Below, in pieces: positions 29,679-33,840 of a stretch of DNA of 34,808 nucleotides. Each line of letters opens with the position of its first letter. Position 1 is the first letter of the stretch. The notes under the pieces were generated by a model, which was not told the DNA's origin, did not search any database, and worked only from the letters and a program-made list of their open reading frames with translations. The position numbers and the translations under genes are program-made. The stretch spans positions 1 through 34,808 of the forward strand of contig JASGCQ010000018.1 of the NCBI GenBank assembly GCA_030054025.1, written 5' to 3'. This DNA is from Phycisphaerales bacterium (GTDB lineage: Bacteria; Bacteroidota; Bacteroidia; Chitinophagales; Chitinophagaceae).

Positions 29679-30512
29679 CTAACTTGTTTTGCCCGCCACA
29701 ACCATTTGATCCATTGTAGGGATAGGGCTACCCCCCATTTTTTCTATAGTTACGGCAAACATTTCTGCTTTGAAAAAGGTCTTCATTTTGAATATCATGT
29801 CACCCGAGCTAGGGTCGTACATTCCTGCATCTACAGGCTTTCCATCTACAATTGCCCACAGTTGATACTGTTTGCCTTCGGGGGCAGCAGGCATACTGTT
29901 CAAATCCAAGAATACATTTCCTGTGGCAGCATCCCAATACAACATACCCGAGTGTTGAGCATGAGTGCCCACACCGGCAAGATTTATTTTTTTGAGTGAA
30001 GGGAGCGACATAATATCCAAAGCTTCTTTTGCTTTTTGAGCAGCTATTAGGGCTTTGTTTGTTCCATCCAACAGCTTTTTTTCTTGTGCGCTGATGTTGG
30101 CAATTTCGGCACTCATTTTTTTATGCTCTTGCATCATCCACATATTGCAAATGCCACTTGCAATAAGCAATGCAATCGAGGCAGCCATAGCATATCCTTT
30201 CCAACTTTTTTTGCTAGAGGGTTTTTCGGTAAGCGATATTTTAGGAGTTTCTGTTTGGGTTGCAATTTTAGAGGCTGTAGAATTAGGTTCTTCTTGTATT
30301 GCAGCCCAAATATTTTGTTTCAGATGTTCAGGAGGATTTGCCGAATGGGATTGAGCATACTGAGCTAATAGAGCCTCTTGCTCGGCAACAGTAGCACGAA
30401 CCGACGGATACTGCTCTATCAATTGCTCGATTTCGCATACCTCATCGGTGGTGGCTATTCCCAAAACATAAGCCTCTATGGTACCACTAGATATGTATTC
30501 CTCAATATTCAC
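29679..30512 (-). CDS. RskA-type anti-sigma factor
   Basis: The 277 residues have a cytoplasmic N-terminal anti-sigma domain (MNIEEYISSGTIEAYVLGIA, about 1-75), a low-complexity linker, one transmembrane segment at about 106-126 (AMAASIALLIASGICNMWMM), a short coiled-coil, and a C-terminal periplasmic RskA domain at about 180-275 (GKQYQLWAIVDGKPVDAGMY, FAVTIEKMGGSPIPT). It should hold the ECF sigma factor encoded just upstream until proteolysis of the periplasmic domain. The start is GTG at 30512. The 24-base gap from the sigma gene and the terminator after its stop define a two-gene operon. Confidence 0.92.
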   Translation of the reverse strand: MNIEEYISSGTIEAYVLGIATTDEVCEIEQLIEQYPSVRATVAEQEALLAQYAQSHSANPPEHLKQNIWAAIQEEPNSTASKIATQTETPKISLTEKPSSKKSWKGYAMAASIALLIASGICNMWMMQEHKKMSAEIANISAQEKKLLDGTNKALIAAQKAKEALDIMSLPSLKKINLAGVGTHAQHSGMLYWDAATGNVFLDLNSMPAAPEGKQYQLWAIVDGKPVDAGMYDPSSGDMIFKMKTFFKAEMFAVTIEKMGGSPIPTMDQMVVAGKTS

Positions 30513-30536
30513 CTTTTTTTACCCCTTACTATTTTT

Positions 30537-31082
30537 TTAAACAAAAATTGATTTTAATTCTAAAAGAGCATTTCGCATTCGTGTTTTTACCGTTCCCAAA
30601 GGTATATTCAATGTTTGGGAAATTTCTTCTTGAGTGAAGCCCTGAAAGTAAGCGAGGTTAATCAATACCCTAAACTCAGGCTTCAAATTCAGGACAGACT
30701 TTTTGAGCCCAAGAACATCAGTATTGTTGGTGCTACTTCTTCTGCCGTCATTCAAATAGGCATTATTGCCTATATCGCTAGTTTTTTGACCTTGTTGAAA
30801 ACCCTTAGAGCGAAGCGTGTCAATGGCTGAGTTGCGCGCAATATTCAACATCCAAGTGTATAATCTACCTTTGCTACTGTCGTATTGTTCTATACTTCGC
30901 CAAATTTTCACGAATACTTCTTGCAATACATCGTTTGCAAGTTCTTCTTGGTTCAATACCTTTAATATGATGCCACACAAAGCTCCCGAGTAATTATCAT
31001 AGAGATAATTAAATGCTTTCTCATCTTTGATTTTCAGCAGGGCAATGAGTTCAGTTTCGAATAAAGCAATGTTGTTGGTCAA
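30537..31082 (-). CDS. ECF-type sigma factor (SigK-like)
   Basis: The 181 residues show sigma region 2 at about 20-90 (AFNYLYDNYSGALCGIILKVL, LANDVLQEVFVKIWRSIEQYD, LYTWMLNIARNSAIDTLR) and region 4 at about 128-178 (LKPEFRVLINLAYFQGFTQEEISQTLNIPLGTVKTRMRNAL). With an RskA-type partner downstream it resembles the SigK/RskA arrangement, which in other bacteria responds to redox or envelope signals. The start appears to be TTG at 31082: no in-frame ATG precedes the conserved region. It lies about 100 bases downstream of the peroxiredoxin gene on the same strand, with a hairpin between. Confidence 0.94.
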   Translation of the reverse strand: MTNNIALFETELIALLKIKDEKAFNYLYDNYSGALCGIILKVLNQEELANDVLQEVFVKIWRSIEQYDSSKGRLYTWMLNIARNSAIDTLRSKGFQQGQKTSDIGNNAYLNDGRRSSTNNTDVLGLKKSVLNLKPEFRVLINLAYFQGFTQEEISQTLNIPLGTVKTRMRNALLELKSIFV

Positions 31083-31189: not shown

Positions 31190-31657
31190 TTAAAGTGTTT
31201 TTAATACCGCCTGTACAGCATCAAAATCAGGGATTTTACCCGCATCTTCCAATACCTCGCTGTGGCGAATGATACCTTCCTTGTCTATCACAAATGCAGA
31301 ACGTTTGGATACGCCCTTCATGCCAAAACCAAAAGTTTCGTAGATAGTTTCGTAGGCAGTAGATACCGTTTTATTAAAATCACTCAACAAAGGAAAATTG
31401 ATATTTTGTTCTGCCTTGAATTTGCCTAAGCTGAATAATGAATCTACCGAAATGCCCAATACTTCAGCATTCAATCCGCCATAGATATTGATATTGTCGC
31501 GTAGCGAACAAAGTTCGGCAGTACAAACACCAGTGAAGGCTAGAGGAAAAAATACCAATACTACATTTTTGCCTTTGAGCGAACTCAAGCTCAGTTCTTG
31601 TTTTTCGGTATTAAAAAGAGTAAAGTCGGGGGCTGCTTGCCCTATTGCTATTGCCAT
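31190..31657 (-). CDS. Peroxiredoxin (AhpC/TSA, redoxin domain)
   Basis: This is a thioredoxin-fold thiol peroxidase of 155 residues. The peroxidatic cysteine is Cys45 in FFPLAFTGVCTAELCSLRD, with Thr42 two turns before it; Cys50 could be a resolving cysteine, as in atypical 2-Cys or AhpE/PrxQ-like enzymes. Substrates should be hydrogen or organic peroxides, with a thioredoxin-like reductant, in the cytoplasm (no signal peptide). ATG start at 31657 with a perfect -7 box upstream. It is divergent from groES; the 210-base region between them holds three repeated AAAATGTC motifs. The AhpE-like or PrxQ-like subgroup is not settled by eye. Confidence 0.94.
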   Translation of the reverse strand: MAIAIGQAAPDFTLFNTEKQELSLSSLKGKNVVLVFFPLAFTGVCTAELCSLRDNINIYGGLNAEVLGISVDSLFSLGKFKAEQNINFPLLSDFNKTVSTAYETIYETFGFGMKGVSKRSAFVIDKEGIIRHSEVLEDAGKIPDFDAVQAVLKTL

Positions 31658-31676
31658 AATAATTGAAGATTTGGAG

Positions 31677-31684
31677 CAAATGTA
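31677..31684 (-). promoter_or_regulatory. Candidate -7 box of the peroxiredoxin gene
   Basis: Read on the minus strand this is TACATTTG, an exact TAnnTTTG match about 20 bases before the ATG at 31657. The first AAAATGTC repeat begins 13 bases further upstream. Confidence 0.55.
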
Positions 31685-31696
31685 GCTAATGCTTGC

Positions 31697-31789
31697 AAAA
31701 ATGTCCTATTATCATTTGGAGCATGAAAAAATGTCGCTATAAGCCAAATCTATAGCTGATAAACACAATAGCTCTGCTAAAATGTCCTA
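31697..31789. repeat. Three AAAATGTC motifs between peroxiredoxin and groES
   Basis: AAAATGTCCTA (ending 31708), AAAATGTCGCTA (ending 31739) and AAAATGTCCTA (31779-31789) lie in the same orientation. Their ATGTC cores begin at 31701, 31731 and 31782, intervals of 30 and 51 bases, close to 3 and 5 turns of the helix. This phasing suggests a DNA-binding site array acting on one or both divergent stress genes. No CIRCE element is present. Regulator unknown. Confidence 0.5.
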
Positions 31790-31867
31790 CAAAGTGGGTT
31801 TGGCATAAAATATGACAGTCCTTGTTAAAACACTTAAACATCTTTATATTAACAAAAATAATAGATT

Positions 31868-32161
31868 ATGGCAAAAAAGACAAACAATTCTGTAAGCATT
31901 ACTCCGCTCCACGACAGAGTAATCGTAAAAGCTGATGCCGCAGAACAAAAAACAGCAGGTGGCATCATTATTCCCGATACCGCTAAAGAAAAACCACAAC
32001 GTGGTTCGGTGATAGCAGTAGGCTCTGGTAAAAAAGATGAGCCAATGACTGTAAGCGTAGGCGATTTCGTATTGTATGGCAAATATGCCGGTACAGAAAT
32101 CAATCTCGAAGGTGTTGACTACCTGATTATGCGCGAAAGCGACATCCTTGCAATTATCTAA
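31868..32161 (+). CDS. groES: Co-chaperonin GroES
   Basis: The 97-residue heptameric lid of the GroEL folding chamber. The family start [38 protein letters not shown] contains the mobile loop (about 26-35) that docks on GroEL, and the C-terminal [21 protein letters not shown] is typical. ATG start at 31868. It is followed after 38 bases by groEL in the usual operon. I do not see a clear consensus promoter; the upstream region has the AAAATGTC array and an A+T-rich stretch near 31840-31867. Confidence 0.97.
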
Positions 32162-32199: not shown

Positions 32200-33840
32200 A
32201 TGGCAAAACAATTGTTTTTCAATATTGAGGCTCGCAACAAAATGAAAAAGGGTGTTGATATCCTTGCAGATGCGGTAAAAATAACCCTTGGTCCTAAAGG
32301 ACGTAATGTAGTTATCGAGAAAAAATTCGGAGCACCAGCTATCACTAAAGATGGTGTGAGTGTAGCGAAAGAAATAGAACTGGAAGACGCTATCGAGAAC
32401 ATGGGCGCTCAAATGGTGAAAGAAGTAGCCAGCAAAACTGCTGATATGGCGGGTGATGGTACTACTACCGCTACCGTTTTGGCTCAGTCTATCATTTCAG
32501 AGGGTCTTAAAAACGTAGCTGCCGGTGCTAATCCGATGGATTTGAAACGCGGCATTGACAAAGCGGTAATCGCTGTGGTGGAAGACCTTCGTCGTCAAAG
32601 CCAAACTGTAGGTAAAGACAATAAAAAAATCGAACAAGTAGCTACCATCTCTGCCAATAACGATAGCAATATTGGTAAACTAATTGCACAAGCAATGGGC
32701 AAAGTAGGTAATGAAGGTGTCATTACCGTAGAAGAAGCAAAAGGAACTGAAACTACGGTGGATATAGTAGAAGGGATGCAATTTGATCGTGGATATTTGA
32801 GCCCATACTTTGTGACCAACACAGAGAAAATGCAAATCGAGTTTTCAAATCCTTATATCCTTATTTGCGAAAAGAAAATCAGCACTTTGCAAGACATTTT
32901 GCCTATCCTCGAAGCGACAATGAAAGCAGGTCGTCCGCTGTTGATTATTGCTGAAGATGTAGAAGGCGAAGCATTGACTACTTTGGTAGTCAACAAATTG
33001 CGCGGTTCTTTGAAAATTGGTGCGGTAAAAGCTCCTGGCTTTGGCGACCGTCGCAAAGAAATGTTGCAAGATATTGCTGCCTTGACTGGTGGTACTGTAA
33101 TCAGCGAAGAACAAGGCATTCAATTGAACTCTGCTACATTGGAATTCTTGGGACAAGCAGAAAGTATCACCATTGATAAAGACAATACAACTGTGGTAGG
33201 TGGTAAAGGCAAAAAAGCTAATATCGTTGCCCGCGTCAATCAAATCAAATCTCAAATCGAAACAACTACTTCAGACTACGACCGCGAGAAATTGCAAGAA
33301 CGTTTGGCTAAGTTGGCAGGCGGTGTAGCTGTACTCTATGTAGGTGCGGCAACAGAGATGGAAATGAAAGAGAAAAAAGACCGTGTGGACGATGCTCTTC
33401 ATGCTACTCGCGCTGCGGTAGAAGAAGGTATCGTAGCAGGTGGTGGTATCGCATTCATCCGTGCAATTGAAAGTATCAGCAAAATGAAAGGCAGTAATGG
33501 CGACGAAGCAACCGGTATCGCTATCGTACGTCGTGCGCTTGAAGAGCCATTGCGTCAAATCGTTGCCAATGCGGGTATCGAAGGCTCTATCGTGGTACAA
33601 AAAGTAAAAGAAGGAAAAGATGATTTCGGCTTCAACGCCCGTACAGAAGTGTATGAAAAAATGTTGGCTGCCGGAGTAATTGACCCTACTAAAGTAAGCC
33701 GTGTAGCATTGGAAAATGCCGCTTCTATTGCCGGTATGTTGCTCACTACCGAGTGTGTGATTGCCGACAAGCCAGAACCAAAATCTACAGCACCTGCTAT
33801 GCCAGGTGGTATGGGTGGCGGAATGGGTATGGACTACTAG
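32200..33840 (+). CDS. groEL: Chaperonin GroEL
   Basis: The 546-residue tetradecameric ATP-dependent folding chamber is complete. Landmarks are [18 protein letters not shown], the ATP-binding [13 protein letters not shown] and [15 protein letters not shown] motifs, the apical-domain segment [17 protein letters not shown], and the C-terminal flexible [11 protein letters not shown] tail. Length is normal and there are no unusual residues I can point to. It is cotranscribed with groES and ends at a clear intrinsic terminator. Confidence 0.98.

Follow-up and report, generated by a model that had tools for sequence, protein, structure and literature searches.

The repeat array that lies between a peroxiredoxin gene and groES in the stretch of DNA analyzed here (34,808 nucleotides, referred to as the window) is best explained, with a probability of about 0.8 as judged from sequence comparisons, as the upstream activating sequence (UAS) of a sigma-54-dependent heat-shock promoter driving groESL. 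Sigma-54 promoters of chaperone genes had already been predicted in the Bacteroidota, and what appears to be new here is the enhancer code together with a candidate activator. In the available parts of the survey by Carrera-Reyna, Cruz-Flores and Merino (2025, PMC12316311), predicted sigma-54 promoters were enriched in Bacteroidota upstream of groEL, groES, grpE, dnaK, dnaJ, ibpA, and protease genes, and GroES and GrpE of Bacteroides thetaiotaomicron as well as GrpE of Flavobacterium psychrophilum were given as sigma-54-dependent, citing a 2009 Blattabacterium paper. The promoters are of the kind considered in this study, whereas no enhancer sites, phasing or activator are named for them in those parts, which state that the specificities of enhancer-binding proteins (EBPs) are not available for all the organisms covered. 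Likewise, neither an enhancer-binding protein nor an enhancer code for Bacteroidota heat-shock genes was found in the open-licence literature, which was covered mostly through titles and the beginnings of abstracts, and subscription work on the subject could exist. The control of heat shock in the Bacteroidota, a major phylum in gut and soil, is unsettled. With the gene proposed here, its defined DNA site, and the rule for the spacing of the sites, the question can be put to the test in common laboratory strains. If the proposal presented below is true, a repressor would have ceded control of the housekeeping chaperones to an ATP-driven sigma-54 activator.

The Repeat Array and Its Unit

The 8-mer AAAATGTC was found in three exact copies on the same strand, at 31698-31705, 31728-31735, and 31779-31786 (+), spaced by 30 and 51 bases as the original prediction had indicated. 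Three same-strand starts within 81 nt were obtained in none of 1000 dinucleotide shuffles of the window, and the total number of copies in the whole window was mildly high (6 vs. 2.7 expected, a value reached in 5 of 100 shuffles). The longer form AAAATGTCNTA was not over-represented genome-wide (17 matches vs. 26 for the reversed control); therefore, the 8-mer alone carries little information and was rejected as an independent motif. The array lies in the gap between a divergent AhpC/TSA peroxiredoxin gene (31190..31657, −; PF00578, E 2.6e-37), which is probably outside the regulon, and groES (31868..32161, +; PF00166, E 1.6e-33), behind which lies groEL (32200..33840, +), a 546-aa ORF that reads as GroEL and was named from its own sequence. 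Next to the peroxiredoxin gene there are an ECF sigma factor gene and then an RskA-type anti-sigma gene (window 29679-31082, −). An Rfam scan of the window at gathering thresholds gave no match, thus no known RNA element is present there.

The copies are real, but the unit is not the 8-base direct repeat that had been proposed. It is a dyad of about 15 bp, CTGnCA-n3-TGnCAG-like, of which AAAATGTC spans positions 6-13. A 17-base palindromic model (11.7 bits), trained on the groES promoter regions of the window's order, places dyad 1 at 31692..31708 (+; 10.7 bits, centre 31700), dyad 2 at 31722..31738 (+; 12.7 bits, centre 31730), and the promoter-proximal dyad 3 at 31773..31789 (+; 11.2 bits, centre 31781), each containing one of the three copies in that order. 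Relative to the inferred transcription start, their centres correspond to about −127, −97, and −46, respectively. In four same-genus loci (L002-L005), dyad 2 has a counterpart that is displaced by no more than 3 bases.

The order groES set comprised 60 loci from 57 of the 59 genomes of the window's order, once two weak partial GroES-like matches (G018:C26 and G038:C27) had been excluded, and 58 of these loci were used. L047, which shows only 32 upstream bases, and L059, the second copy of groES in G052, were left out. Dyads were present in all 58 promoters. CTGACA occurred in 33 of the order groES regions vs. 2.1 in shuffles, and CTG-N7-GTC in 22 vs. 1.4. Conservation was highest (0.96) at a G and at the C that follows it at a distance of ten bases, both flanked by CT/AG, and the centre was A/T-rich. 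In promoters on which the model had not been trained, 60 dyads were found for dnaK (49 promoters; 5.0 in shuffles), 76 for clpB (48 promoters; 4.6 in shuffles), and 46 for groES of the wider class (27 loci; 1.8 in shuffles). The dnaK set represents 49 of 53 matches, leaving out L197 (duplicate of L142), L224 (too short), and three others; the clpB set represents 48 of 55, leaving out L209 (no clear start) and six others; and the wider-class groES set excludes L264, whose genome is also in the training set. The test put forward with the original prediction was thus run and passed, since orthologous groES promoters retain the sites and an excess of them precedes other stress genes, it being noted that all the promoter counts come from related sequences and overstate independence.

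The Sigma-54 Box Facing groES

Downstream of the dyads, the window carries a sigma-54 −24/−12 promoter, TTGGCATAAAATATGA, at 31800..31815 (+). It faces groES and scores 19.4 bits, in a model whose training set includes this box. Its GG is located at 31802-31803 and its G at 31814, with ten bases between them, and we infer that it is used by sigma-54 polymerase, in which case transcription would start at about 31827. In the order groES promoters, the conserved box is TTGGCA(C/T)-N5-(T/A)TG(C/A)-like and begins 34-102 bases before the start codon used. The two bases of its GG were found in 56 and 57 of the 58 promoters and the −12-region G in 56, in an alignment that took the best-scoring place in a fixed range and was thus partly chosen for consensus. 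A box of at least 8 bits was also present in 48 of the 49 untrained dnaK promoters (shuffles 4.8%) and in 25 of 27 groES loci of the wider class (shuffles 5.4%), or 25 of 26 without L277, one of the two misses, which belongs outside the class. Three further order or class loci (L324-L326) all had a box and at least one dyad. The clpB promoters reached 8 bits in only 13 of 48 cases (shuffles 4.2%), their −24 element being weaker or degenerate; when any TTGG-N10-G box was admitted, 48 dyad-box pairs were counted in clpB promoters vs. 0.45 in shuffles. The original prediction had offered two words for the array, operator and upstream activator site. The second fits a sigma-54 promoter downstream of the dyads, and operator, in the sense of a repressor site, is the less likely of the two.

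RpoN is encoded in the window's genome (G000:C98; PF04552, E 4.1e-51), in 58 of 59 order genomes, and in 138 of 138 sampled genomes of the phylum. Given that rpoN is nearly universal in these samples, sigma-54 itself does not discriminate among them. A loose −24/−12 pattern was also tried across the own genome and was rejected as too unspecific (170 matches).

The array had been predicted to be shared with the peroxiredoxin gene as a regulator site common to both transcription units. The two genes are indeed divergent, and dyad 1 appears to overlap the place expected for the upstream element of the peroxiredoxin promoter. The probable −7 element of that promoter, TACATTTG (31677..31684, −), is present in five of five same-genus loci (L001-L005) and is presumably of the Bacteroidota TAnnTTTG type. 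Against a common site stands the single directional box, which faces groES; on the minus strand of 31641-31868 no peroxiredoxin-facing sigma-54 box was found at 8 bits, the best scoring 7.5. Moreover, peroxiredoxin was seen next to groES in only 8 of 60 loci, yet dyads occur in 58 of 58 order promoters. The upstream sequence covered was 1500 bases in 30 of the 60 loci, which include all eight, and about 600 bases or less in the remaining half. A regulator site common to both genes is therefore quite improbable. With peroxiredoxin seldom seen beside groES and the only good box facing groES, the oxidative half of the heat and oxidative stress regulator originally envisaged is unproven.

Helical Phasing of the Sites

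The dyad centres cluster, relative to the box, near −18, −29, −39, −49, −60, −70, −81, −92, −102, and −113. The phasing between dyads and box, expressed as the resultant length R, was strong in groES (R 0.77 at 10.5 bp, 123 sites), dnaK (R 0.82 at 10.35 bp, 60 sites), and class groES (R 0.89 at 10.5 bp, 44 sites) promoters, and R was 0.81 in the named loci (45 sites, which may overlap the class set). With the four same-genus copies removed, the observed phasing was reached in none of 1000 jittered sets, for the 112 sites and also for the 76 distal ones alone. The spacings between neighboring sites, which do not depend on the box, gave R 0.77 at 10.4 bp (58 spacings) and were mostly of 2-9 turns. 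For clpB, phasing was weak with 8-bit boxes (R 0.43, 23 sites); with TTGG-N10-G boxes, R was 0.67 at 10.4 bp and an in-phase pair was present in 22 of 48 promoters. In the window, the dyad centres lie 19, 70, and 100 bases before the box. With 10.4 bp per turn, the spacings of 30 and 51 bases correspond to 2.9 and 4.9 turns; the placement on one helix face claimed for the copies is thus about right and agrees with the phasing seen across promoters.

Helical spacing and an A/T-rich dyad centre are also compatible with phased A-tracts that curve the DNA or with sites of a nucleoid protein. We consider this highly improbable, because the conserved G and C and the CT/AG flanks are not needed for curvature and the distance between neighboring sites is mostly of several turns.

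The enhancers of bacterial EBPs (bEBPs) are usually located 80-200 bp upstream of the transcription start. The window dyads near −97 and −127 are within this distance and the one at −46 is outside it. The position of the latter, −18/−19 from the box start, is the one most often occupied in the groES and dnaK promoters. Being nearer than usual bEBP enhancers, the −46 site could serve another protein. In this regard, the protein on the dyads might be, in place of the sigma-54 activator, a repressor or a two-component regulator, for which RprY of the OmpR family is an example, with the −46 site occluding or contacting the polymerase. This is unlikely in our judgement: the sites are dyads, whereas OmpR-family proteins usually bind direct repeats, and the in-phase sites, spread between about −18 and −114 relative to the box, resemble those of looping activators and not those of a repressor. 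In favor of such a regulator, the commonest dyad is close to the promoter and, in the available parts of a Porphyromonas gingivalis study, gel shifts showed RprY binding to the promoters of groES, dnaK, and clpB, for which a repressor role of RprY was put forward (PMC3646045). The words “consensus” and “binding motif” are absent from the text of that study, so its RprY sites could not be compared with the dyads. In addition, the essential list of B. fragilis, in the portion available, includes rprX/rprY together with groEL, groES, grpE, and several sigma factors (PMC4072883).

CIRCE and the Box in Other Lineages

The CIRCE pattern TTAGCACTC-N9-GAGTGCTAA, allowing up to 3 mismatches, was found in none of the 60 groES regions of the order (one of them showing only 32 bases) and in none of the 98 dnaK/clpB regions. 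This includes the groES upstream region of the window, as had been noted for the intergenic gap at the outset. CIRCE is likewise absent according to the available text on P. gingivalis, whose authors assume that control is exerted in some other way (PMC3646045).

Outside the class, the groES regions of 38 of the 104 sampled genomes were covered, most of the 38 being picked for family diversity. CIRCE without the box was found in 29 of them, the box without CIRCE in 9, and both in none; the box-type regions belong to 4 families and the CIRCE-type to 19, so that few independent events are represented. A full-length activator match was present in 9 of 9 box-type and in 4 of 29 CIRCE-type genomes. 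In 37 of the out-of-class regions, 13 dyads were counted vs. 2.2 in shuffles, 8 in box-type and 5 in CIRCE-type regions. The 8 box-type dyads were distributed over 6 of the 9 regions and were, by eye, all within 2 bases of the class phase; the remaining three box-type groES regions had none. Four loci of one out-of-class family (f40; L300, L305, L310, and L312) have a variant box before groES, in which TTGGTACGG/TTGGTATGG...TTGC replaces TTGGCA.

HrcA/CIRCE is likewise an operator placed before groES in sister lineages, but it is a repressor operator and was mutually exclusive with the box in the 38 outgroup genomes. Control of the window's groESL by HrcA/CIRCE, or by the nearby ECF sigma factor, was also considered. 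CIRCE is common in the out-of-class regions, and the ECF sigma and RskA-like anti-sigma genes are about 0.8 kb away. We consider either form of control highly improbable; CIRCE was missing from every groES, dnaK, and clpB region of the order. In Chlamydia, tandem sigma-66 and sigma-54 promoters precede hrcA-grpE, according to the available part of the source (PMC8762339).

Predicted Target Genes

A pattern joining the proximal dyad and TGGCA had 26 matches in the own genome vs. 13 for the reversed control. Four of the 26 passed both models. Three of them precede groES, dnaK, and the grpE-dnaJ operon, and the fourth, within an M13-peptidase gene, is probably due to chance. The joint motif (thresholds of 10 bits for the box and 8 bits for the proximal dyad) was scored in 80 named loci chosen for the activator gene described below (1.09 Mb), where it appeared 23 times: 21 before groES, one before hsp20, and one before clpP. 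Since groES neighbors the activator in many of these loci, its share is biased. The remaining loci and the window gave 93 distinct joint matches, 91 before groES, dnaK, clpB, or grpE and two intragenic, in a set mostly chosen for these four genes, including the training promoters, with genes named by reading their proteins. Upstream of the hsp20 gene (L340, 5967-6443, +) there is a sigma-54 box with a proximal dyad; upstream of the clpP gene (L342, 12840-13664, −) the box is sigma-54-like and the proximal dyad is strong.

The Candidate Activator and Its Possible Mode of Action

The own draft genome (127 contigs) encodes two intact proteins with a strong sigma-54 activator match, in loci L065 and L066; five further matches, of 33 bits or less, were considered too weak to be counted as bEBPs. 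The L065 protein (1072-2244, +) has a receiver and a sigma-54 activator AAA+ domain and no match to a helix-turn-helix (HTH) or other DNA-binding domain. The L066 protein, of 420 residues (L066:1468-2730), is encoded between miaB and lptE, neighbors that were named from sequence. It has an AAA+ domain at residues 12-264 (PF00158, E 7.3e-68), a GAFTGA loop at residues 87-92, which is GSFTGA or GSFTSA in some of six aligned relatives, and a Fis-type HTH at residues 376-416 (HTH_8, E 1.5e-12), and the domain search gave no N-terminal sensor match. As the only intact bEBP found to have a DNA-binding domain, the L066 protein is the candidate by elimination; together with its co-occurrence and neighborhood, this makes it the likely activator and suggests that it binds the dyads.

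One activator match of at least 437 bits was found in each of the 59 order genomes, the next best reaching 254, and a match of at least 414 bits in each of 34 class genomes. The activator gene precedes groES in the same orientation, at a distance of 1686-3682 bp, in 24 of these 34 sampled class genomes; in the other 10, which comprise the seven sampled from the window's family and three more, it is not beside groES. Judging from the names of the nearest named activator loci, the window's family is probably the Chitinophagaceae. Within the order but outside the family, it lies no more than 6 kb upstream of groES in 7 of 23 genomes, by reading of assemblies of which many are fragmented. In the 80 named loci, of which 64 have that much sequence, groES was found within 6.5 kb downstream of the activator in 34, with the box in 33 of these, and miaB was just upstream in 51 of the 76 with room for it.

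The sites, the box, their phasing, the regulon, their conservation, the gene neighborhood, and the mutual exclusion with CIRCE are sequence findings in the genomes compared, and they would fit the following mechanism. Sigma-54 RNA polymerase would wait as a closed complex at 31800-31815, while dimers of the enhancer-binding protein would occupy the three 15-bp dyads through their Fis-type HTH, on roughly one helix face. The bound dimers would then assemble an AAA+ ring, ATP would open the complex, and groESL would be switched on; once binding to the dyads is granted, the opening of the sigma-54 complex by the ring follows the established mechanism of bEBPs. The box and the phased dyads would likewise drive dnaK and grpE-dnaJ, as well as clpB, whose −24 element is weaker. 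Heat would be the signal. It must be considered that an activator with no sensor match counts against reading it as a heat activator and would leave the heat input unexplained. Given that no sensor domain was found, we guess that the signal may reach the L066 protein in the manner of PspF, by release from a partner or chaperone, perhaps through residues 286-314 of its linker. We would give even odds to the full proposal, in which one sensor-less activator, its gene placed between miaB and lptE in many of these genomes, is the master of heat shock in the whole class Bacteroidia and some sister lineages, replaced HrcA/CIRCE, reads a phased dyad code that includes the −46 site, and is restrained by a partner acting on the linker, perhaps chaperones.

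The L066 protein resembles PspF and other receiver-less bEBPs in having the AAA+ domain first, the Fis-type HTH last, and no N-terminal sensor match, and PspF AAA+ structures were among its structure matches. In contrast to PspF, its predicted targets are cytosolic chaperones, and its AAA+ domain is joined to the HTH by a linker some 110 residues long (about 265-375), a length that might permit the unusual −46 site. The array, for its part, is comparable to the UAS of the NtrC/NifA type, which are likewise dyads for Fis-type HTH dimers upstream of a sigma-54 promoter, but it differs from them in the G-N9-C core of the dyad and in that one prevalent site is as close as about 20 bp upstream of the −24 box. 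Segment 286-314 of the linker is conserved and the rest is variable, with YKLFF...K.D (292-301) invariant in seven aligned proteins; it is a candidate regulatory or dimer contact, and it was helical in an AlphaFold model built from 7 sequences (mean pLDDT 52, a poor value). Frames of a length like that of L065 (about 386-404 aa) are found among the weaker activator matches of many relatives, and a third strong activator match in L067 (1648-1854, +) is a gene remnant with an internal stop codon.
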